From NCBI GenBank assembly GCA_022925895.1, contig JAKSYS010000793.1, positions 1 to 24,954 on the forward strand: 24,954 bases of DNA, in the 5' to 3' direction. Each line of letters starts with the position of its first letter. Position 1 is the stretch's first letter. Positions 3,967 to 20,947 of this stretch are shown here, one piece after another. Made by a program: the position numbers and the translations under genes. Below the pieces are notes generated by a model. It did no database searches. It was not told the DNA's origin and worked only from the letters and a program-made list of their open reading frames with translations. The DNA is from Fragilaria crotonensis. Lineage: Eukaryota > Bacillariophyta > Fragilariophyceae > Fragilariales > Fragilariaceae.

Positions 3967-4472
3967 GAGGTGAGTGGTACTGTACCTGATTACTTGAAGG
4001 AGTGGAGATGGCTCCGCTGAGCCGCAAAATATGGTTAGAAAGGTGACGAAAGAGAACTTGTCACTTAAATTTGTGAAGGAGCGTTTGATGACTGCTTCTG
4101 ATGGTGCTGTAGATTTAGGTACAGTATCAATACTGGCGCAAGATATTGGCTGACGGATTGACGATCTTCATGAAATTGAAAATTCAGTCTGGACGGTGGA
4201 CTGTGTTTTGGTCGAGTACTACCAGTACTACTACGATGTACTGGAGTACTATGTACTGTCGGCTTGTTTGCGCCAAGTCCCGCAGTCTCTGATGGATCGA
4301 CAGAGTCTATCTTGTATCTTCGGATGTCGCCCGCCTGCACCCAGAAATGAACAACGGAACACACAGAACAGGCGCACAACAAAGTTCTGTTTTGGTAGGA
4401 TTAGTCGTTTCGCCAACGTTAAGGTCCAATAGGATCATCTTTCGTCCATCTCTCCACTCTCCACACACAAGC
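3967..4472. other. Divergent intergenic region (transporter / 4473 gene)
   Basis: About 500 bp separate two divergent starts, so both promoters should lie here. The only marked structure is a GTAC-rich cluster at 4211-4259. I see no convincing gene. Confidence 0.6.
4211..4259. promoter_or_regulatory. GTAC-rich cluster in a divergent promoter
   Basis: It holds five AGTAC/GTACT units in 49 bp. TACTCCAGTACA reads on the minus strand at 4248-4237, the same core as at 7608 and 20626. It is about 225 bp before the 4473 start and 245 bp before the transporter start. Function is inferred. Confidence 0.4.
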
Positions 4473-5608
4473 ATGCTGGCTTCCATCTTCGTGACTTCCC
4501 CATTCATCTTGTTATGCCTAAACCTAATGAAGGTTTCGGAAGCCTTTGTTTTAAATTCTGCTGCCTCGCGGGTCACGGTGGGACATTCATCCTCGACTCC
4601 AGTAACGACAAGGACGAAGTAAATGATACACCAGAATGGACCATGTCTCAGGAATGGGCTCTTCTTGATTTGGTGCCCAAGTTTACAGTCGGTGAAGATG
4701 TTCACGCGAGAACATTTTGGGCACAGCTCGCGGCCTCCACACCTATTCTGAGTCACTTCACCGATTCTGACCTTCAGCAACGATACGACGCAATCCGCTC
4801 GAACAGAGATGGTCCTGGCACAGTAATCCACTCAAATTCAACAGCTATTGATGCAGGCACTTCAGCACCATTGTCCTTTCTTCGACCACCGCAAGTCCTT
4901 CAGGATTGGAAAGTTATTTCCACGGAGGGTCAACCAATGAGGATGAGCGGCATTTTGAGTGATGGGCGTACCATTTGGTTTCCGATTCAAACAGTGGGAA
5001 AATTCGAGTCTGATCCTGCAGCACTCGACTTGGAACCAAGTTCGATGACTGCTGCGACTGCTGGCGGATTTGTGGAGTCTGTGGGAGGTCGCATCTATGA
5101 ATTGGGCCAACCGGCGACGACCATATTCATGAGCGAGAAAGAAACCGGTCAGCACAAAACAAGTGTTGTGCTATCACCGCAGCGAGAAGATGATGAAAAA
5201 TCCTTCAAGATGTCAGACGCATTTCGACGATTTCCGTGGGTGTCGGCTACTACGGCAACAATGTCGGCTCTTGTTGCCTCGTCGATTCTATCCGCAGCGA
5301 TCGGATACGGCTCAGGTCTCGGTATAGCGTCGATAGAATCCAGAGAATTATCACTTCAATCAGCTTCTTCTTTACCCCCCTCAACTGTTATGATGCGGCA
5401 CCACAACAGGGCCTCTGGATCTGTTGTTGTCTTTCAATCGAGTGTGACAGGAATGCTGCCCATAAGCGAACAACGCGAACGAGCTGAAGTACGAGTGCAA
5501 CAGGAACAGCGACTCATGGAGAGGCTTTTGGAACGACTAGAGCAAGATCAAGTCGTTTTGCAGCTGCTTAAAATGGAAGAGGGTTTTGCTGGATCTCTAG
5601 CACCGTGA
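4473..5608 (+). CDS. Unknown protein, probably plastid-targeted, frame-broken near the N-terminus
   Basis: I do not recognise the family. The ATG at 4473 opens a hydrophobic signal peptide that ends in KVSEA|FVLNS. A Phe right after the signal-peptide cleavage site is the diatom plastid-import pattern. This frame stops at 4622, while the main body is open in another frame (4514-5608). The first residues of that second frame look like an out-of-frame shadow, so the switch probably lies between 4540 and 4622. One missing base there would give about 378 residues. The body has an acidic, Trp-containing segment (TPEWTMSQEWALLD), a beta-rich middle with GGRIYELGQP, one likely membrane helix (about 5240-5330, Ala/Ser/Gly-rich), and a charged C-terminal coiled-coil-like helix from EQRERAEVRVQQEQ. 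An 80-nt intron at 4533-4612 would also fit the frame, but it has a poor donor and deletes the targeting motif. Confidence 0.6.
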
Positions 5609-5993: not shown

Positions 5994-5997
5994 AAAA
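5985..5997 (-). terminator. RNA polymerase III terminator of the permuted tRNA
   Basis: On the minus strand TTTT (5997-5994) directly follows the trailer arm GTTCCTC (6004-5998). TTTTTT (5990-5985) follows as a backup. T-runs of four or more end Pol III transcripts. Confidence 0.6.
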
Positions 5998-6104
5998 GAG
6001 GAACACCGTAGTCAGGCGCCTTGCCGTTGGGCCAACAGGTCGAGATGCAGCGCTTAAACCTGCCCGGGATTCGAACCCGGAATCTCCTGATGGCTGAGTT
6101 CCTC
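5994..6104 (-). tRNA. Circularly permuted tRNA-Arg(ACG) gene
   Basis: On the minus strand the 3' half precedes the 5' half. The 3' half is 6091-6056: A38, anticodon-stem 3' strand TCAGG, variable loop AGATT, T arm CCGGG/TTCGAAT/CCCGG, acceptor GCAGGTT, base 73. A 14-nt spacer (6055-6042) follows. The 5' half is 6041-6006: acceptor GACCTGT, T8, G9, D arm with A14, G18 and G19, stem CCTGA, loop CTACGG to position 37. Joined, the halves give exactly 72 nt. All stems pair: acceptor 7 bp with G-U at 1:72 and 7:66, anticodon 5 bp, T 5 bp, D 3 bp. The loop is C-T-A-C-G-G-A, anticodon ACG, which reads CGN Arg codons as inosine. The flanks GAGGAAC (6104-6098) and GTTCCTC (6004-5998) are complementary and would close an intron-like structure at the 37/38 junction. 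Odd points: U73 and the G1:U72 wobble. Confidence 0.82.
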
Positions 6105-6225
6105 ATTGCCCATTTAGGGAAAATTAAGGTATTTAACGTCTCTCCTAAGAGGCACCGATACACTTATTGATTTCAGCTCCCGTTTGCTGGGCTGCACTCG
6201 AAATTCGCTTGAGGCTGTATGTCAT

Positions 6226-6282: not shown

Positions 6283-6409
6283 ACGAAAAAAAATAACAAT
6301 TTGTCGACACCGTGCCCTGACCCTGTAATGATATCGTCACCAGCCTTTGTCTCTGTCACATCGCATCTACATTTGACGTTTGGCTCATGCGCATCCATCT
6401 GACGACATT

Positions 6410-7471
6410 ATGGCGAAGGGAAAAGGTCGGCAAAGCGGCGGCTTTGCAAGTAAGGCTCAGCGTGCTCAATTTCACGCTGAATGGAAAGAGCGCCTTGCCG
6501 AAGATGCCGCTGATCGCTGGCGGGGAAAGTCAAAATCAGTAACTAGCGTGAGGGAGCGTCCGAAGCTTCGACTTCAGTCCCTTCAAATTATTCTCCAGGA
6601 ACGCCAGTATGACGACCAAGTGGAGCACAAATCCATCCGACAGAAGCATTCGTCAGTGGCGAAGCGCTGGCACGTTAGTCAACCTGGTGAACTGCTGTAC
6701 GACCGTGACAATGATTACGGCAAGGAATATCGCAGGACTTGCCAAAGCCTTCAGTCACTCTGCTTGCAAGCGTTAGCCCCATCATTGCCAAACTACCTAG
6801 ACCAAATGGGTGAAACGATGCTACATCACTACTTGTCACTACTTCCTGGGCCAGCTCTGGCGGCACTCTCTGTCTACATATCCGCTTCAATTGGTATGTC
6901 TAATTCACTGGTGCGTCTCCTCAATCAGACCCAAGTCACGCGATTATCAATCGTTGCTTCGAAGAACGATGATGAGACGGATAGCCACTGGAAGGCACTT
7001 ACGAAGCAAGGGTTGGAGGCCCTTATTCCAACATGGGGACACGTTTCAGATACAGTGGTGCGTGAATCATGGGAAGATATCAGCGCAGACGAAGAGGAAC
7101 TATGGCAGTGGCGGGGTTGTCGACGCCTAGAGCGCCTCGAATTGGGTAATCTTCCACATTTCTCACTTGAAAGCTTGGAAAAGTTGCTCGAGTCGTGCTC
7201 TGCTTTGACACACTTGGGACTTAGTGGAACATGCGCCTATGAGTCGGGACCCGATGTCCTCTGGCGGCTCCCAGACTGGCTCCCACAGCTGCAGTACTTG
7301 GATGTGTCAGGCAATCCCTGGGTCACCGAGATCCTCCTTCGAAAACTGTTCGAAGAGTACAGTCTGCGATACCCTCAAATTCTCCGGATCAAAGGAGTCG
7401 GGTGTTTGGCTCCCTCCAGTCGAGTTAGTTTGGAGCTTGACTTCGGGGATCAGTTCATTTCTACTGTGTAG
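6410..7471 (+). CDS. Leucine-rich-repeat-like protein of unknown function
   Basis: A 353-residue intronless protein. The frame is open to a TTG at 6380, but the first ATG is at 6410. The N-terminus is basic and polar (MAKGKGRQSGGFASKAQRAQ), with no signal peptide or transmembrane helix. Residues about 60-160 are helical and charged. The C-terminal third (about 239-330) has degenerate LRRs of the RNI/F-box-associated kind: RLERLELGNLPHFSLESLEK, LTHLGLSGTCAYESG and LQYLDVSGNPWVTEILLRK. The likely role is a soluble protein-interaction scaffold; nothing identifies a partner. The gene is convincing, the function open. Confidence 0.8.
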   Translation: MAKGKGRQSGGFASKAQRAQFHAEWKERLAEDAADRWRGKSKSVTSVRERPKLRLQSLQIILQERQYDDQVEHKSIRQKHSSVAKRWHVSQPGELLYDRDNDYGKEYRRTCQSLQSLCLQALAPSLPNYLDQMGETMLHHYLSLLPGPALAALSVYISASIGMSNSLVRLLNQTQVTRLSIVASKNDDETDSHWKALTKQGLEALIPTWGHVSDTVVRESWEDISADEEELWQWRGCRRLERLELGNLPHFSLESLEKLLESCSALTHLGLSGTCAYESGPDVLWRLPDWLPQLQYLDVSGNPWVTEILLRKLFEEYSLRYPQILRIKGVGCLAPSSRVSLELDFGDQFISTV

Positions 7472-9706: not shown

Positions 9707-10636
9707 TTAGTCGAATTGACCGCGAATAGCCGTGTTAAACTTTCTGGAGCCTTGCTTGCCTAGATGGAACTGGATATAGAAATCAGCCGGTTGGTCAAGA
9801 ACTTTACTTGCCAAATCAGAGTCATCGATGCCCAAACCTGACAACGTGTTGCATCCGAGGAATCGACCCGGTGCAACCCTGAACTTGGAAAAGTCCGCAA
9901 CAAGATCGCCGTTTGCACCAGCTGGGCCGTTGTGAAAGTGAGAAACAACGGGGTCAAAACCGGTGATGCTGGCGTCCATGCAAATCGTTGTTCCACCATC
10001 TTCAAAGGAGATTGTCGCGGTTCCAGATGCATCGAGATCTTGCTCATATTGGCCCACTTCTTCATCAGCGCTGACATCCGTAGTTAATCGCTGAATAAAC
10101 TGACCGCGAATACCACGTAAGCGGAGAGACTCTGGAGACTCGGCGACTTGGGCGTTCACATAAAAGTACTCCTGCGAAGCGATATAAAATGTCAGCAATG
10201 TCCAAGTCATGAGAGCAAGAGCAAGATAGTCGACGACACAGCGCGGCGCGGTCTTACCGAGTTACCTTTCATGTCATTGTAGACTGCTTGATCCACATTC
10301 TTACAACCCTTGAAGGTTGGTTCGCCACGTAGCATTTTGCTGTTCGACCTTGTCTATTAACCCGTTCAATGATATCTGGGCCTTGCGAATATGGAGTTGG
10401 TCTGGGATGAAACCGATCACATTAGTCTCGATGCAAACTTTCCACTTGCCGGTTGTACGCGCAGAATTGTAGTCGAGTTTGACATCAGCGACACCATAAG
10501 CATAGGGTACGCCAGTGAATGGGGACCTTTCATTCTTTGGAGTTAGCTTGATTTGAGAGAATGCAATGTTCTGCGTCGTGGCAGTTGCAGCCGCCAAGAA
10601 TGTGACAAGGACTTTGATGGTTGAGATGGCTTTCAT
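9707..10636 (-). CDS. Secreted protein with two CHRD domains, one intron, frame-broken
   Basis: CHRD domains, first known from chordin, occur in secreted proteins; their role in algae is unknown. The ATG at 10636 starts a signal peptide (MKAISTIKVLVTFLAAATA). An upstream in-frame TTG at 10681 is not needed. The first CHRD unit spans exon 1 (ADVKLDYNSARTTGKWKVCI to the intron and beyond). The second lies in exon 2, with ATISFEDGGTTICMDASITG, HFHNGPAGANGDLVADF, and a closing IRGQF. The intron is 10257-10172 (86 nt, GTAAGA...CGCAG). Exon 1 changes frame between about 10345 and 10310: one frame stops in TTG TAA, while the next reads PTFKGCKNVDQAVYNDM straight into the donor and joins to EYFYVNAQVAE. 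One extra base explains this; corrected length is about 280 residues. Confidence 0.8.
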
Positions 10637-14673: not shown

Positions 14674-16770
14674 CTACGCTGCCACCTGAAGGGACCTGCA
14701 GCCAACTTCGAAATCTTCGCAGCAATCGCATTTGACATTCTTGTCTACGTAGATGCCTCCAGCGATACCGAGGTCGCACATGCCGGATGGAAGAGACCCA
14801 GAAAGGGTGGAAACTCCGAAAAAGTCGAACTTGTACAACACGTTAAGATGTACGAGCTCATGAGGCAACGTGCCACTAAAAAAGTTGTCTCCGCCGTCGA
14901 ATATTGTCAGAGCTGTAAGCATTCCCAATTCAGACGGCAAGGTGCCGCGAAAACCACTGAGGGATAGAAAAAGTTGCTCTAACATGAAAATCAACAATGT
15001 TCGAAGTTAGCACGTGCATTGGGCAAAGGCATTAATTTGGCAACGGTTTGACCTACCAAGTGATGTACACCTTCCAAGCTCACTTGGGATGCTGGTTCCA
15101 TCCATTACGCACCCGCGGAGCTCCAATATTTTAAGTGACGACCCCAAGCTTCCAATCTCCGTGGGAAGAGGCCCTTCGATTGGTGACAGATCGGCGTTGA
15201 AGGTTGCCAGATTTGTCAGGAGCCCAATTTCGGTTGGGATTGTTCCCCAGGTCTGCGTGACGGAGCAGTCGATATTCGCGAGACGCCGTAGCAGGCCTAT
15301 TTCATTGGGGATGGTGCCATCAATGGTATTCACGCTAATTGCAAAAGTTTCTAAATCATTCATTCAGTCTGAGTACGGCGGGCGAGCATATTGTTACATT
15401 CTTTGGGCCTCAGTATCGACTCACCTATGTCCTGCCAAGATGAAATCAGACTCCATGCGTCGCCTACGAACACGTTTGTCGAAACGTCGAATGTCTCTGG
15501 TGAGAACTGCCGTAAGAGTGCGTGCGCAAAATCACAATGTTGACACAATCCGAGTTTACTCACTAAGCTTTTTTAGCGACCTCAACCCGTCTGGAAATGA
15601 TCCAGATAGGAAGTTTAGTTCGAGCTTGAGTATCTCTGCGCCAAAGCGTGCGGTGAGCGTTAGACAGGTCGCGTAGCAAATCAGCAGGCAACAAGGTTGT
15701 TCATACATACCGAGATTGGTGAGCTTTCCAACATCAGCGTCAAGCTCTCCAGCAAATTCATTATTCGCGAGGTCTAATGACACCAGATTTGTTAGGGAAT
15801 ACAGTCCCTTTGGAATGGTACCTTCGATTCGATTTCGTGGCAAAGCGAGCAATGCTGTCGAGAGGCACCGGTATTGTAAGTGTTGGTGTTGATGTCTATC
15901 GCCACGACCTACCATCGCGGTGCGAATGTTAACACAGAACAGACTTACTAAGCGACGAGAGGAACCGAATTTCGTCCACGAGCGACCCGGTCAACAGCAC
16001 ATCAACCCCCAGGTGGAGCTCCTGAACCTGATCCCTGTCGTTACAAACAACTCGATCCCAGTCGCACTCATGCATACCCGGGTCATCGGCCCACCCAACG
16101 AAGTGCCATCCAGTCCCACCCATCGCGAAGTACAGGACCAAAAGTGCATACCGTTGTTCCAGACGAATTGTGTTGTTTAGAGAAATTCGAAGAGTGTCAG
16201 TGTATGTCATCCAATCGGTTGCGACGAGTTGAGCTGCTTCGGTTCAAGACGAAACGTATCGATGCCCAGAATGTTGACTCGAAGCTCTTGGAGATAAGTG
16301 TTCCCTTCGTCCGTTTTTGTCGACCCTTCTTTTGGAGAAGGTTCAACGCTTGTGACGGTATCATGGCCACGACTTGTGCAGTATAGAATGATTGCTGGTA
16401 TGCCGAGCGAGAGCACGACGGTGCCCGCCAACGCGACATATTTCCACGCGGGACAGCGATTGCATTGACGACACGTCGCACGATTACTTCGACCATCAGC
16501 AACTACCGGAGACGTCTCGTGTGGCTGGTGATTGGCTACACTTGTTTCCTGGTGATGGTGTTCGAGGTCTCCCATGTCGTTTGGCTGAGGCGCTAGCACA
16601 GCAACATGGCCATTGCCCTCATTCAAATGGACTACAGTAGGGATGGGAGCATGTGGTTCTTCGGAAGAGAGACAATAATCGTCAACAGAGTCACGCGTAT
16701 TCTCCACACGGACTGTAACTTCATCGCCTTCCCTTGGATAGCGAGCAATCGCAACATCAGGACTCATCAT
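14674..16770 (-). CDS. LRR membrane protein A (type II topology), six exons, frame-broken in exon 1
   Basis: Family: diatom LRR receptor-like proteins, ligands unknown. Exons are 16770-15949, 15854-15711, 15635-15564, 15496-15425, 15350-15057 and 14978-14674. All introns are GT-AG, 67-94 nt, phase 1. The N-terminal part is polar and His-rich with CRQCNRCP, followed by one TM helix (KYVALAGTVVLSLGIPAIIL, residues about 110-131). Next come an LRR cap segment (RLEQRYALLVLYFAMGG, HECDWDRVVC) and about nine LRRs of the xGTIPxEIG plant type. The end is Cys-rich (KCDCC). The LRRs face outside if the N-terminus is cytosolic. Exon 1 breaks frame at about 16210: the first frame stops in QPIG, and the second begins at MTYTDT. 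The paralog B shows an unbroken EWMAVEDN here, so 1 or 4 bases seem lost. It is either a pseudogene or an assembly error. Confidence 0.75.
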
Positions 16771-17880
16771 CGAGATAACAATTCGTCGTTCAGAAAAAGG
16801 CACGCTCGGACAATGTTGGACCACACATCCAAAAAGTAAATCACAGACATTTTCCTTGGGTCTAGTGTGTGATCAAAGTGGGACTCTTTGCTTTAAGAAC
16901 GTGGGCCAATCGGCGTCCGATAATGCTTGGTGGTAGCTGAGTCTTTCCCATTTGTTCAGTATAGATCGTACAGTCGTCACAACCTGGTGGCGCGTGACTA
17001 GAAACTTGGCCCACAAATTGTGTCCTGCTATATCCACTAAAATGGTATGTGCCGATGTGTGACTCTCACCCGACACGTCTTGCGAAGACCCAAGACTCGA
17101 CGAGTCGCAAGTCATGGGATGGGACGACCTACCAACCCGACTCCAGGATAGGAGCTTCTCGGCAACAGCACCTCCGTCGATTTTAACTCCTCACAAATAG
17201 AGCCGCATCCCATGAAAACAATATCAGTGGTACATGGCTGCGATGGGAGTTCACTGCCATCAAGAATGCGCACCACCATCCAACTGTTGAAACACAGCGG
17301 TAGTTAGGTGGTTGATGAGAGTGAAGGGGGATAAGGGATGATTGGCACTCGTGAGTCGTCACTGATGTGCAGGTTACAGGAAACCACTTCGAAAGGCCAA
17401 ATCAAGGGTTGGTTCTCCAGGCAGTTCCTTGTATACTTCTCTAGGATAACGTACAGGTAAGCAGAGATGAAGGTCATCCTGATATGACGGCTAGTATGTG
17501 TACATGTGACTTTGATGCCCTGCATGGAGCATACCGGAAACAAAGGGCAATCATTTTCGATGGTCATCTCCCGATGCTTTATGTAGCAAGCTATGCCTGA
17601 CAAGTCGAGCACAGGCTCTGCATTCCTGTCCGGTTGAGATTTTGAGGGACTGCTCCGAACTCCGAGCATCATGCAACTATTCCCAATATGGTTCACAACA
17701 TGTTTCAATCCTTACTTTTCCAAATTAACTATGGGACGAGATGAAACTAGAAAACAGACGCAGCAGCTGGTGTATCTTACATCTCCATGGGGGCCGTTGG
17801 AAAGTGTCAATGCCGTGCAGGTTTACAAAAGCGCCTTTCTCAAAACTTTTGAAACCTGCTTCGCGGCGATGCGAAGTATG
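16771..17880. other. Intergenic region between the two LRR genes
   Basis: About 1.1 kb from the 3' end of LRR gene B to the start of gene A. It should hold the promoter of A. Two minus-strand open frames, 16873-17115 (80 codons, ATG start) and 17304-17708 (134 codons), have no recognisable domain. The first has a somewhat protein-like composition (HNLWAKFLVTRHQVVTTVRS), but nothing more supports it. Confidence 0.45.
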
Positions 17881-20021
17881 TTAAGAACAGCAAGCACAAT
17901 CTTGAAGGGTAACCCACTTGTCAGCAACCGCACATAGACCTTCAGGCACCGTCCCACTCATTCGTTCATTTCTGCCGAAATTGAATGACGTCACTTGACT
18001 CAACATCCCCATTTCAGAGGGTAGAGTCCCAGTGAAGGCGTTCTGGGCGGCATCGATTACATGCAATGAAGTCAGACTGCCAAGTTCGGATGGTACGGTA
18101 CCAGAGAAAGCATTTCCAGCGATTCCGAGATCAGCTGTGATCGTGATGGACGCAACAAAGAAATTTGAGTACACAGGAGATCACAGGCAAACAGCGAGCG
18201 ACCTTGACCGCAGCTGTTCACACCACTTACTGAGCATCGTACACAAGCCAATCTCTGTTGGAATAGTTCCACTCAGGACACAGTCGCTCAGCCGCAATTC
18301 CACTGGAATGTTGTGAGGAAAAACACATATTGAGTGATTATGTATGTCGTCGCATTGGATAGCACATCACATCCACAAGGCTTGCGCAACAGCAAAACAT
18401 ACCAAGAAACCTCAGATGTCCGATTTCGCTTGGAACTTTGCCCCGCACTGATGTCACGCGTCCATCGAGCACTGTTAAGGAGGTAAGCAGCCCAATTTCG
18501 GACGGAATCGTGCCCGCGATTAGTGTGCTTCCAAACGAGAGAAACTCTAAATGTTTGAGGACGCCGATTTCGGTGGGGATTGTGCCTGTTACATCGGAGG
18601 AGACGAGTGACAGAAAAACTGCGTCAATCGAGTAAGAAGGAACCACACCATCTGTTAGCTCAACGGTACAAAACGATACCCTCTGGGTGACGAACCAGCA
18701 CTGTCATCCTTACCCATATTTGGCAGTTTGCATATGATACGCATCATGTTTCCCCCAAGTGAAGTGGAATCCAGTATGAGTTTCGCTGCCAAAACATGTT
18801 AGGTGAAAGAACCCAAGGAGCTATTCACAAATGATGTCTTATACACTCACTAAGTTTCGTGAGCGACGAAAACGAGTCTGGTAAAGTACCGGTCAATGGG
18901 TTTGCCATAAGGTTCACAGATTCTTCACGATCCAGGAGGTGATTAGCAAATGCAAGAGGTTTTCGAGACCAATCACGTTCAGATTGCCACCATGACGTAC
19001 CAAGGTTCGACAACCTTTCGAATTCGGATGACACGCCCCCCTGGAGGTTATTTCCACCCAACTCTAGGCGAACTACACCGAGACAATGGTGTCAGAAGGG
19101 CAGAAAACAATCCATGACAAGTATGCTGCAGAAAGGAAGCCGTACATACCAAGATTAGACAGCGAAAACAGGACACCAGGTATTGTGCCATCTACAGAGC
19201 TTTCGTGTGTACTCAATGAAGCTGTGAGGAAGGGCAGATAATCGTGAGCGCATGCCTGTAACAATCGGAATCACTTGACGAGGCGCATCAAAGCAGTCGC
19301 ACTTACTCAGCGACGAGAGGAGAGCTATTTCTTCAACAAGAGTGCCCGTTGCCCTAATGAGGTCAATTTCAGTGACTTGCTTGGCCGAATCGCATCCAAC
19401 GTTCTCCCAGTCGCATTCGTGAGTTCCAGGAACTAACAAACTGGAGCTAGCAGGATTCAAGTTCATTCCAAAGTAGATGGCCAAGAGCGCGTACCGCTGT
19501 TCCAAGCGCGTTACATTGAGCTCAGCCTCGCACGCATTATCCTCCACTGCCATCCATTCCGTTGCCATGGACTGCGGCGCGTCGGCGCTGAGACGGAAGG
19601 CTTCAATCCCCAAAAAGGCACGACGTAGTTCATGTTGACATCTCTTCGCAGCGTCGGTTTTCGTAATGTTGACGGGGTCGGAGTTTTGTTCTAGAGATTC
19701 TTTGTTGTCCGGAGCGGTGAGCAATAACGCCGATGTTGTGATGATTGCCACAGTTATGGTGAAGATGACAAGCGGTAGGAACTTTCTCACCGTATTCGGA
19801 GGGTACACTTTCTTTCCGGGTGTGCCGCAGAGCAAAGATTTGCGCGGGCTTAGAAGTTCATAGGTTTCTGGGTGCTTTTCTTGCGGGGCTTCAGCAGTTG
19901 CATCCTCACGTGGTTCCACTGTTGGATTACCCTCAACAAAATCAGACGAACCTTCAGGATTTTCGTTATCGAAGTCATTGATGTCCCCAGGATGCGATAA
20001 TGCAGACAAGGAAGCAGTCAT
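17881..20021 (-). CDS. LRR membrane protein B (type II topology), eight exons
   Basis: Tandem paralog of LRR gene A, intact. Exons: 20021-19307, 19221-19150, 19072-19001, 18922-18851, 18785-18714, 18618-18403, 18302-18231, 18134-17881. Exons 2-7 measure 72, 72, 72, 72, 216 and 72 nt, one LRR per 72 nt, and every intron (65-100 nt) is phase 1. The product has about 514 residues: an acidic cytosolic N-terminus, a TM helix (FLPLVIFTITVAIITTSALL, residues about 82-102), and a cap (RLEQRYALLAIYFGMN, HECDWENVGC). Ten or so LRRs follow (GTIPTEIGVLKHLEFLSFGS, GTIPSEIGLLTSL, GTVPSELGSLTSL), with a C-terminal DCACC. The frame is open to a TTG at 20225; the ATG at 20021 is the first in frame, but an upstream exon cannot be excluded. 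The likely role is surface recognition or adhesion, inferred from the architecture. Confidence 0.85.
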
Positions 20022-20947
20022 CGTTTGTCGAATACGTGGATTCGCGCTTCTCGCGCTATCTCCACCACGATGGATTTTGTCGATGTGGCCTGAGCGCGAA
20101 GCCAAGTTGTGGTGAGATCCAAATAAATCACGAGAGGAACGAACTGCTTGGTAAACTTGCTCAATTATAGACGTATTGACAGAACGAGGGGGCGCACAAG
20201 GAGATTCAGTTATTATGTCAAACAAATTGAATTCTCAGGAAATCAATTGTCCAGCCGTAAGGAGGATGTGAAAGGCGATGACGATGGCACCTGGTGGCGG
20301 AGGAAATGGGTTGGTGCCAATACGCATGAAATGAATTGGCATCGTTTCGACAAGCTCACCTAACTCCTCTCCTCCGATGGAAAGCGGAACTCTAACACTG
20401 CCGTCTCGGGCATATGCTAGTACGCTCAAGGATGTGAAAGCGGATTGTTGGGTGTGATCGTTTCCTGTGAACCTGAAATTCGAGGAATAAATGTGTACAG
20501 ATCTGTCGAGCTCGTATCTCGTACTTCAGACTTTTACACTATAACACGCCCGACATTACGAGGTCGAATGTGATGAAAATCTGCTTTACGAAGAGCGAAT
20601 AAAGCATTCTTGCGAGTACATGTCCTACTCCAGTACAGTGTGACTGGTGTACCTCTGCACTCCTATTAGTGCATAGTGCATAGTCTCACTGGCATATGGG
20701 GATTGGTATCATATCTTTATTATGCACTGCGGTAATTGTTGCAGAATCTTCGAACAACATTCTCCATTTCGCTTTTTTGTGATCACATAACACGTCATGG
20801 ATTTCGATTATTCTCGCGAACTTTGCATTGAAACGACACCGCCGGACGTTTCTTTCGGTATTTGTTGGGAGTGGATGGTTCAATACTCATGTACTTGTAA
20901 CCTGTGACGCAAAGGCTAGCTGATGTTCAACCTGGGGTTTGTCCACC
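20022..20947. other. Divergent intergenic region (LRR B / two-pore channel)
   Basis: Promoters of both flanking genes should lie here. The minus frame 20225-20022 continues the LRR B frame without an ATG and may be 5' UTR or part of a longer N-terminus. A GTAC-rich cluster lies at 20615-20655. I see no other gene. Confidence 0.5.
20615..20655. promoter_or_regulatory. GTAC-rich cluster upstream of the two-pore channel
   Basis: It holds CGAGTACATGTCC, then TACTCCAGTACAG at 20626-20638 (identical to 7608-7620), then GGTGTACC. It is about 295-330 bp before the ATG at 20948. Function is inferred. Confidence 0.4.

Follow-up and report, generated by a model that had tools for sequence, protein, structure and literature searches.

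On the minus strand of the window (the whole stretch of 24,954 nt analysed here), the 3′ half of a tRNA-Arg(ACG) lies upstream of its 5′ half, and the question raised by this locus is whether the reversed order marks a functional circularly permuted tRNA gene or the scrambled remains of an ordinary one. The reading held here with high confidence, in the absence of RNA data, is that of a functional, nuclear, type II (37/38) circularly permuted tRNA-Arg(ACG) gene with two dispersed copies, one on the window contig (C772) and one on contig C48.

Anatomy and detection of the permuted gene

Read along the minus strand, the locus consists of a leader, the 3′ half, a 14-nt spacer, the 5′ half, a trailer and TTTT (Table 1), and the span 5994–6104 corresponds to the predicted precursor core, which runs from the leader helix strand (6104–6098) through the TTTT, whose last base is 5994. 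The minus-strand positions that the original prediction gave for the two halves and the 14-nt spacer are exact to the base, and joining the sequence bears out its length of exactly 72 nt. The arrangement that defines a permuted gene, with the 3′ half upstream of the 5′ half on one strand and a spacer joining the acceptor ends, is met in both copies, while the locus lacks the order of an ordinary tRNA gene, with or without an intron, in which the 5′ half comes first. CCA is not encoded, the 3′ half being followed by AAG in the window copy and by CAG on C48, as the criterion for a eukaryotic gene requires.

Table 1 Features of the permuted tRNA-Arg(ACG) locus (window positions)
Feature	Position	Strand	Basis and remarks
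Possible Pol III promoter element, the TATA-like TTAAATAC at −45 relative to the 3′ half	6129–6136	-	AT-rich, no background comparison; weak evidence
Leader strand of the outer junction helix, GAGGAAC	6098–6104	-	7/7 Watson–Crick with 5998–6004
Leader part of the bulge–helix–bulge loop, TCAGCC	6092–6097	-	Loop geometry; CAGCC kept in C48
Predicted 3′ splice site	between 6092 and 6091	-	Loop geometry
3′ half of tRNA-Arg(ACG), positions 38–73, no encoded CCA	6091–6056 (36 nt)	-	Covariance model; identical in C48; reads ATCAGG...GGTTT
Spacer (intervening, acceptor-loop), 14 nt, no T-run of four	6055–6042	-	Sequence; 16 nt with two substitutions in C48
5′ half of tRNA-Arg(ACG), positions 1–37, anticodon ACG	6041–6006 (36 nt)	-	Covariance model; identical in C48; reads GACCTG...CTACGG
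Predicted 5′ splice site	between 6006 and 6005	-	Loop geometry
Trailer strand of the outer junction helix, GTTCCTC	5998–6004	-	Pairing with leader strand
TTTT, Pol III-type terminator directly after the helix	5994–5997	-	Sequence

The rejoined halves form a canonical tRNA with eukaryotic invariant bases, a D-stem mismatch apart, and the anticodon A34C35G36 identifies it as tRNA-Arg(ACG). All of the diagnostic bases listed at the outset could be read from the joined sequence (numbering by hand), namely T8, A14, G18G19, T33, G37 (as the purine R37) and T54T55C56G57A58, together with A15–T48 as the R15–Y48 pair. The accompanying claim that every stem pairs was worded slightly too strongly: it holds for the acceptor stem (7 bp, two of them G–T), the anticodon stem (5 bp) and the T stem (5 bp), but the D stem has three Watson–Crick pairs and C13–A22, which is no standard pair and is presumably also present in plant and human Arg(ACG) sequences. 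The minimum-energy fold of the rejoined tRNA alone (−26.0 kcal/mol) contains the acceptor, anticodon and T stems, with an alternative pairing of the D arm. Mean column identity was 82% in a four-row alignment with human, plant and yeast tRNA-Arg(ACG). C20 and T73 are shared with the ordinary Arg(TCG) of the same genome (read by hand), which makes T73 less odd than it would otherwise be.

The permuted tRNA match at the locus is not due to chance. To avoid circularity, covariance model R1 was trained solely on ordinary tRNAs of this genome, with Arg(ACG) left out. The 14 sequences, which included three other Arg isoacceptors, were each given a random spacer and permuted in silico at 37/38. Across 34,855 bases (the window plus 9.9 kb of contig C48), R1 scored 57.4 bits (E = 4.8e-18) at the window locus and 52.6 bits (E = 2.5e-16) at the C48 paralog, and the next-best match reached 7.8 bits; the E-values are rough, as calibration was short. 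It had been anticipated that standard tRNA finders would miss the gene, and neither ARAGORN (bacterial setting) nor Rfam at gathering thresholds reported any tRNA in the window.

At a relaxed threshold the only Rfam match over the locus is RF02553 (5993–6106; 22.5 bits, E = 0.013), which admits the reading that the locus encodes a Y RNA-like mimic of the YrlA type, carrying tRNA-like arms in the same permuted order but never becoming a tRNA. This score is far below the gathering score of 69, so that membership of the family is not met, and a shared topology would explain the match. Moreover, conservation between the copies is complete (72/72) and takes in the anticodon loop, the acceptor stem and the letters of Arg(ACG), for which a mimic would have no use, and this reading is given hardly any credence here. 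The absence of a YrlA match at the C48 locus at E 0.1 is uninformative, because 22.5 bits there would correspond to an E-value of about 0.46.

The locus is situated between open frames at 4433–5608 and 6377–7471, both without a Pfam match. A tRNA pseudouridine synthase gene (PF01416; 8169–9386, plus strand) lies ~2 kb from the permuted gene, probably by coincidence. Elsewhere in the window, a PHROGs scan of 9707–10261 returned 0 families, and several adjacent minus-strand frames at 15556–20234 appeared leucine-rich-repeat-like by eye, that at 19158–20234 having no Pfam match; for one frame of this stretch, contig C10 carries a relative with 58% identity that is riddled with stops.

A second copy and the geometry of the predicted splice junction

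Used as a DNA query against the 62.1-Mb assembly, the rejoined tRNA gave four half-matches at only two places, the window locus and C48:50181–50268, where the 3′ half likewise comes first and the spacer is 16 nt long. When the window was compared by blastn with the 9.9 kb around the C48 copy, only 5995–6102 aligned (~110 shared bases), and the flanking 100 nt on each side showed 24% and 23% ungapped identity, approximately that expected by chance. Because the flanks are unrelated and similarity extends over only ~110 bases, the copies are considered dispersed paralogs rather than alleles. Similarity between them (5994–6104 of the window; 4870–4982 of the 9.9-kb C48 piece) is confined to the predicted transcript despite spacers that are identical at 12/14 positions (two substitutions), as though nothing beyond a unit of transcript length had been duplicated.

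Within this unit, the tRNA halves show 0/72 differences between the copies, compared with 9/35 differences and a 2-nt indel in the leader, spacer and trailer (Fisher P = 2e-5). This divergence pattern fits selection on exactly the letters of the mature tRNA, within the limits of two copies and ascertainment bias: the halves themselves were the query that led to C48, so copies with decayed halves could have escaped notice, and the 0/72 figure is biased accordingly. The same contrast bears on the possibility of a scrambled pseudogene, in which the halves of an ordinary tRNA-Arg(ACG) gene changed places (a tandem duplication that then lost its two outer halves would be one route) and the non-functional product was later dispersed. 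Tandem duplication with outer loss is a published model for the origin of permuted genes, as far as the accessible part of PMC3978253 sets it out, but a functionless pair does not account for halves that stayed unchanged while the precursor stretches diverged, nor for the compensatory changes in the junction helix.

The outer helix pairs at 7/7 Watson–Crick positions in the window copy (GAGGAAC with GTTCCTC) and at 6/7 positions in the C48 copy (ATGGAGC with GCTCCTT). Among 200,000 random heptamer pairs drawn from the window, 7/7 pairing occurred at a frequency of 1.05e-4 and six or more pairs at 1.5e-3. Three helix pairs differ between the copies, of which two are compensatory (G–C to A–T and A–T to G–C) and one becomes T–T; with three leader and two trailer changes placed at random, both trailer changes match and pair with a probability of ~0.016. 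Drawn from two sequences, the compensatory changes are suggestive only, and offer a hint of selection on a predicted splice fold.

A 7:7 loop separates the outer helix from the anticodon stem, with TCAG-CC^A facing CTAC-GG^T in the window copy and ACAG-CC^A facing CTAC-GG^C on C48. In bulge–helix–bulge motifs, cleavage falls after the second base of each 3-nt bulge. Applied to both 3-nt bulges, CC^A and GG^T (GG^C on C48), this rule places the cuts at 37/38 in both copies and predicts a joint at exactly 37/38. The central helix of the motif has only 2/4 pairs, and the presence of a bulge–helix–bulge-like junction for 37/38 cleavage is met in relaxed form, as a prediction without cleavage data. 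C32 is able to pair with G(−3) of the leader in both copies, positions 32 and −3 being those of the anticodon–intron (A–I) pair. The yeast endonuclease uses anticodon–intron pairing, according to the accessible part of PMC3978253.

The sequence downstream of the window copy is TTTT (5997–5994), placed right after the helix, while the C48 copy has TTTTT, the first two T lying inside the trailer helix strand. Neither spacer contains TTTT, and the expected arrangement of a T-run after the 5′ half with none in the spacer is met; in 33/34 ordinary tRNA genes examined in this genome, TTTT occurs within 25 nt downstream. The C48 copy has a TATA-like stretch, TATATATT, at about −41, the counterpart of that at −45 in the window copy (both AT-rich, without background statistics), and similar AT-rich stretches lie upstream of some ordinary tRNA genes of this genome, again without statistics.

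The search for an ordinary tRNA-Arg(ACG) gene

A check for an ordinary tRNA-Arg(ACG) elsewhere in the genome had been called for from the start, and three directed searches of the assembly (rejoined DNA, 3′-half pattern and uninterrupted junction pattern) found no ordinary nuclear Arg(ACG) gene, although the general tRNA inventory is incomplete. The DNA search with the rejoined tRNA gave no ordinary copy, only the two permuted loci, and both places matching the 3′-half pattern AGATTCYRGGTTCRA (2/2) are the permuted copies. The uninterrupted junction pattern matched 18 places with up to two mismatches, compared with two for the reversed-pattern control. These places were rejected as ordinary Arg(ACG) genes: ARAGORN recognised 0/18, and the best score from model R2, which scores the three ordinary Arg tRNAs at 55–69 bits, was 7.8 bits. 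No permuted tRNA was present among them either (0/18). By eye, 13/18 fall into four groups of near-identical repeats. A repeated sequence, read in five copies, carries CTACGTATCAGGAGATTC or a one-base variant of it, bears a chance likeness to the Arg(ACG) anticodon arm and is possibly part of a mobile element.

These searches bear most directly on the possibility that the permuted gene is real but redundant, with an ordinary, diverged or intron-bearing nuclear tRNA-Arg(ACG) supplying most of the tRNA. A diverged or intron-split gene is not excluded because the general tRNA search was incomplete: the Rfam tRNA search scored 63 of 2,258 candidates and omits genes that Rfam itself scores at 59–60 bits, and of the 687 places matching two T-arm patterns (447 and 240, compared with 178 and 196 for the reversed-pattern controls) only 80 regions were read. 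The DNA search is also of low sensitivity, as a human tRNA-Arg(ACG) query had no match in the assembly, a null that shows little because even the permuted copies were missed. Set against this are the 3′-half pattern, which led only to the permuted copies, and the 18 uninterrupted-junction places, none of which is a tRNA by ARAGORN or R2. Redundancy is thus considered unlikely, though it keeps some weight.

The scan for further permuted tRNAs covered the same 80 regions, which were chosen among the matches listed (~100 per T-arm pattern) and come from early contigs only. ARAGORN identified 14 ordinary tRNA genes in 13 of these regions. R1 returned 20 matches with E no higher than 0.1 (a single one at 38.6 bits, the other 19 at 10.8–20.9 bits), and no plausible permuted cloverleaf was evident in the alignments of the best 10 of the 20. 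The 38.6-bit match, on contig C168, was rejected as a permuted tRNA, being a tandem pair of ordinary tRNA-Glu genes. On the minus strand at 131–287 of the region read there, two ordinary tRNA-Glu(CTC) genes lie 6–8 nt apart, an arrangement that mimics permuted order and resembles the one proposed to give rise to permuted genes. Searching a viral and a genome contig collection, neither of them meant to hold diatoms, with a gapped permuted-Arg(ACG) pattern gave 0 matches in each. On contig C880, one tRNA recurs six times at ~1.0–1.4 kb spacing (69508–75687), perhaps as a repeat array of a mitochondrial genome, and the contig may overlap itself, given the equally scoring tRNAs at ~3.8 kb and 85.5 kb.

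For the scrambled pseudogene, the closely spaced tRNA-Glu pair indicates that tandem tRNA genes do exist in this genome. However, the ordinary parent was not found in the three directed searches, and no ordinary tRNA lies beside the window locus (ARAGORN) or in the 9.9 kb around the C48 copy (Rfam, E 0.1), leaving this reading only a slim chance. The original prediction of a real permuted tRNA-Arg(ACG) gene, rather than a scrambled pseudogene, thus gains support from the second copy, the compensatory changes, the splice geometry, the T-runs and the lack of any ordinary gene found, without RNA data.

An assembly artefact, or a contaminating contig from a red or green alga, could also place a permuted gene here, as the assembly comprises 881 contigs and there is no direct taxonomic identity for C772 and C48. 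Such an error is very improbable, since the gene occurs on two contigs with different spacers and unrelated flanks, the window protein that has a 58% identical relative on C10 has weaker ones on 13 further contigs, and C20 and T73 match the ordinary Arg(TCG). The description of the genome as diatom-like has indirect support only: the CP47 encoded on plastid contig C881 has its best PDB matches in 6j3y and 8iwh, which we take to be the photosystem II structures of the diatoms Chaetoceros and Thalassiosira, and there is no species identification.

The other Arg isoacceptors found, TCT, TCG and CCT, are ordinary genes, with Arg(TCG) lying on the 726-kb contig C218. Six reading frames of the window, four of which have a Pfam match, comprise 2,404 triplets, among them 18 CGT, 26 CGC and 37 CGA, and a tRNA for these codons is therefore needed. 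In eukaryotes, CGU and CGC are decoded by a tRNA in which A34 is converted to inosine. The two permuted copies may be the only cytosolic source of tRNA-Arg(ACG).

Proposed processing, relatives and significance

As the gene halves stand in reverse order, the cell probably circularises the RNA and then recuts it before use. Whereas the anatomy, junction geometry, second copy, constraint pattern and endonuclease loci were read directly, every transcription and processing step is inferred from the pathway of Cyanidioschyzon merolae and green algae, as given in the accessible part of PMC3978253, and from general knowledge. Pol III would transcribe the leader, 3′ half, spacer, 5′ half and trailer and stop at the T-run, and the leader/trailer helix and anticodon stem would bring the 37/38 junction into a relaxed bulge–helix–bulge fold. 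The tRNA-splicing endonuclease would then cut both strands at this junction and a ligase would join positions 37 and 38 into a circular RNA, from which RNase P and tRNase Z would excise the spacer before CCA is added. Deamination of A34 to inosine would finally allow the tRNA to read CGU, CGC and CGA.

The tRNA-splicing-endonuclease domain (PF01974) occurs at two loci in the assembly, and an ordinary tRNA-Tyr of 85 nt (ARAGORN) has an apparent 12-nt intron after position 37. An RtcB ligase had no match in the genome in a search that detected 9/14 controls; PF09511, also used in the ligase search, had none, but this profile matched nowhere at all and is hence uninformative. Weighing against a functional gene are the absence of any ligase match, the central helix with 2/4 pairs, the T–T outer pair on C48, conservation judged from two copies only, and the absence of RNA evidence. 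A more far-reaching reading, which we regard as doubtful, is that a diatom with a 62-Mb assembly obtains its nuclear-encoded tRNA-Arg(ACG) from these two copies alone, that CGU/CGC decoding depends wholly on circularisation, and that the gene spread as a transcript-sized unit, perhaps via reverse transcription of the permuted precursor. Such spread is proposed because the two copies resemble each other only from the leader helix to the T-run, beyond which their flanks are unrelated.

Permuted tRNA genes are known from one red alga, a few green algae, chlorarachniophyte nucleomorphs and one archaeon (PMC3978253, PMC4494063, PMC12636532, PMC3218864, as far as their accessible text extends), and of the 34 tabulated in the available part of PMC3978253, none is Arg(ACG) and none is from a diatom. 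No report of such genes in diatoms or other stramenopiles was found in the literature searched, coverage of which was partial, and priority is not proven. The closest likeness is to the type II genes of Ostreococcus, Micromonas and the Bigelowiella natans nucleomorph, which, in the portion of PMC3978253 available, likewise have the 3′ half first, a 37/38 joint, mostly no intron and a relaxed motif (hBH), with spacers of 5–64 nt compared with 14 and 16 nt here. In contrast, those genes encode Ser, Leu, Cys, iMet, Arg(TCT) and Asn tRNAs in green-lineage DNA, whereas the present gene is for Arg(ACG), belongs to a diatom-like nucleus and has two dispersed copies, whose outer helices pair at 7/7 or 6/7 positions. 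C. merolae shares the gene order, downstream T-run, lack of encoded CCA and, as inferred here, the circular-intermediate pathway, and its upstream TATA-like stretch has a possible counterpart here, but it has 11 genes with joints at several positions, compared with 37/38 only and one isoacceptor from the partial search here (PMC3978253, accessible part). The green alga Auxenochlorella has nuclear permuted tRNA genes that were noticed because the tRNAscan-SE set was incomplete (PMC12636532, from the part available), and the archaeon Thermofilum pendens has a permutation with a bulge–helix–bulge at the joint, as here, but with the joint at 59/60 and CCA encoded (PMC3218864, likewise in part).

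The locus is very probably a functional permuted gene in a new lineage and for a new isoacceptor, RNA evidence being lacking. It extends permuted tRNA genes to a lineage with a secondary red plastid, apparently as the first stramenopile case within the literature searched, and the paralog pair offers compensatory change in a junction helix, no description of which was met in the partially covered permuted-tRNA literature. The pathway would be essential because the isoacceptor reads common arginine codons, and would be testable in a culturable alga. The finding also suggests that some ‘missing’ tRNAs of eukaryotic genomes may be permuted genes skipped by standard finders.
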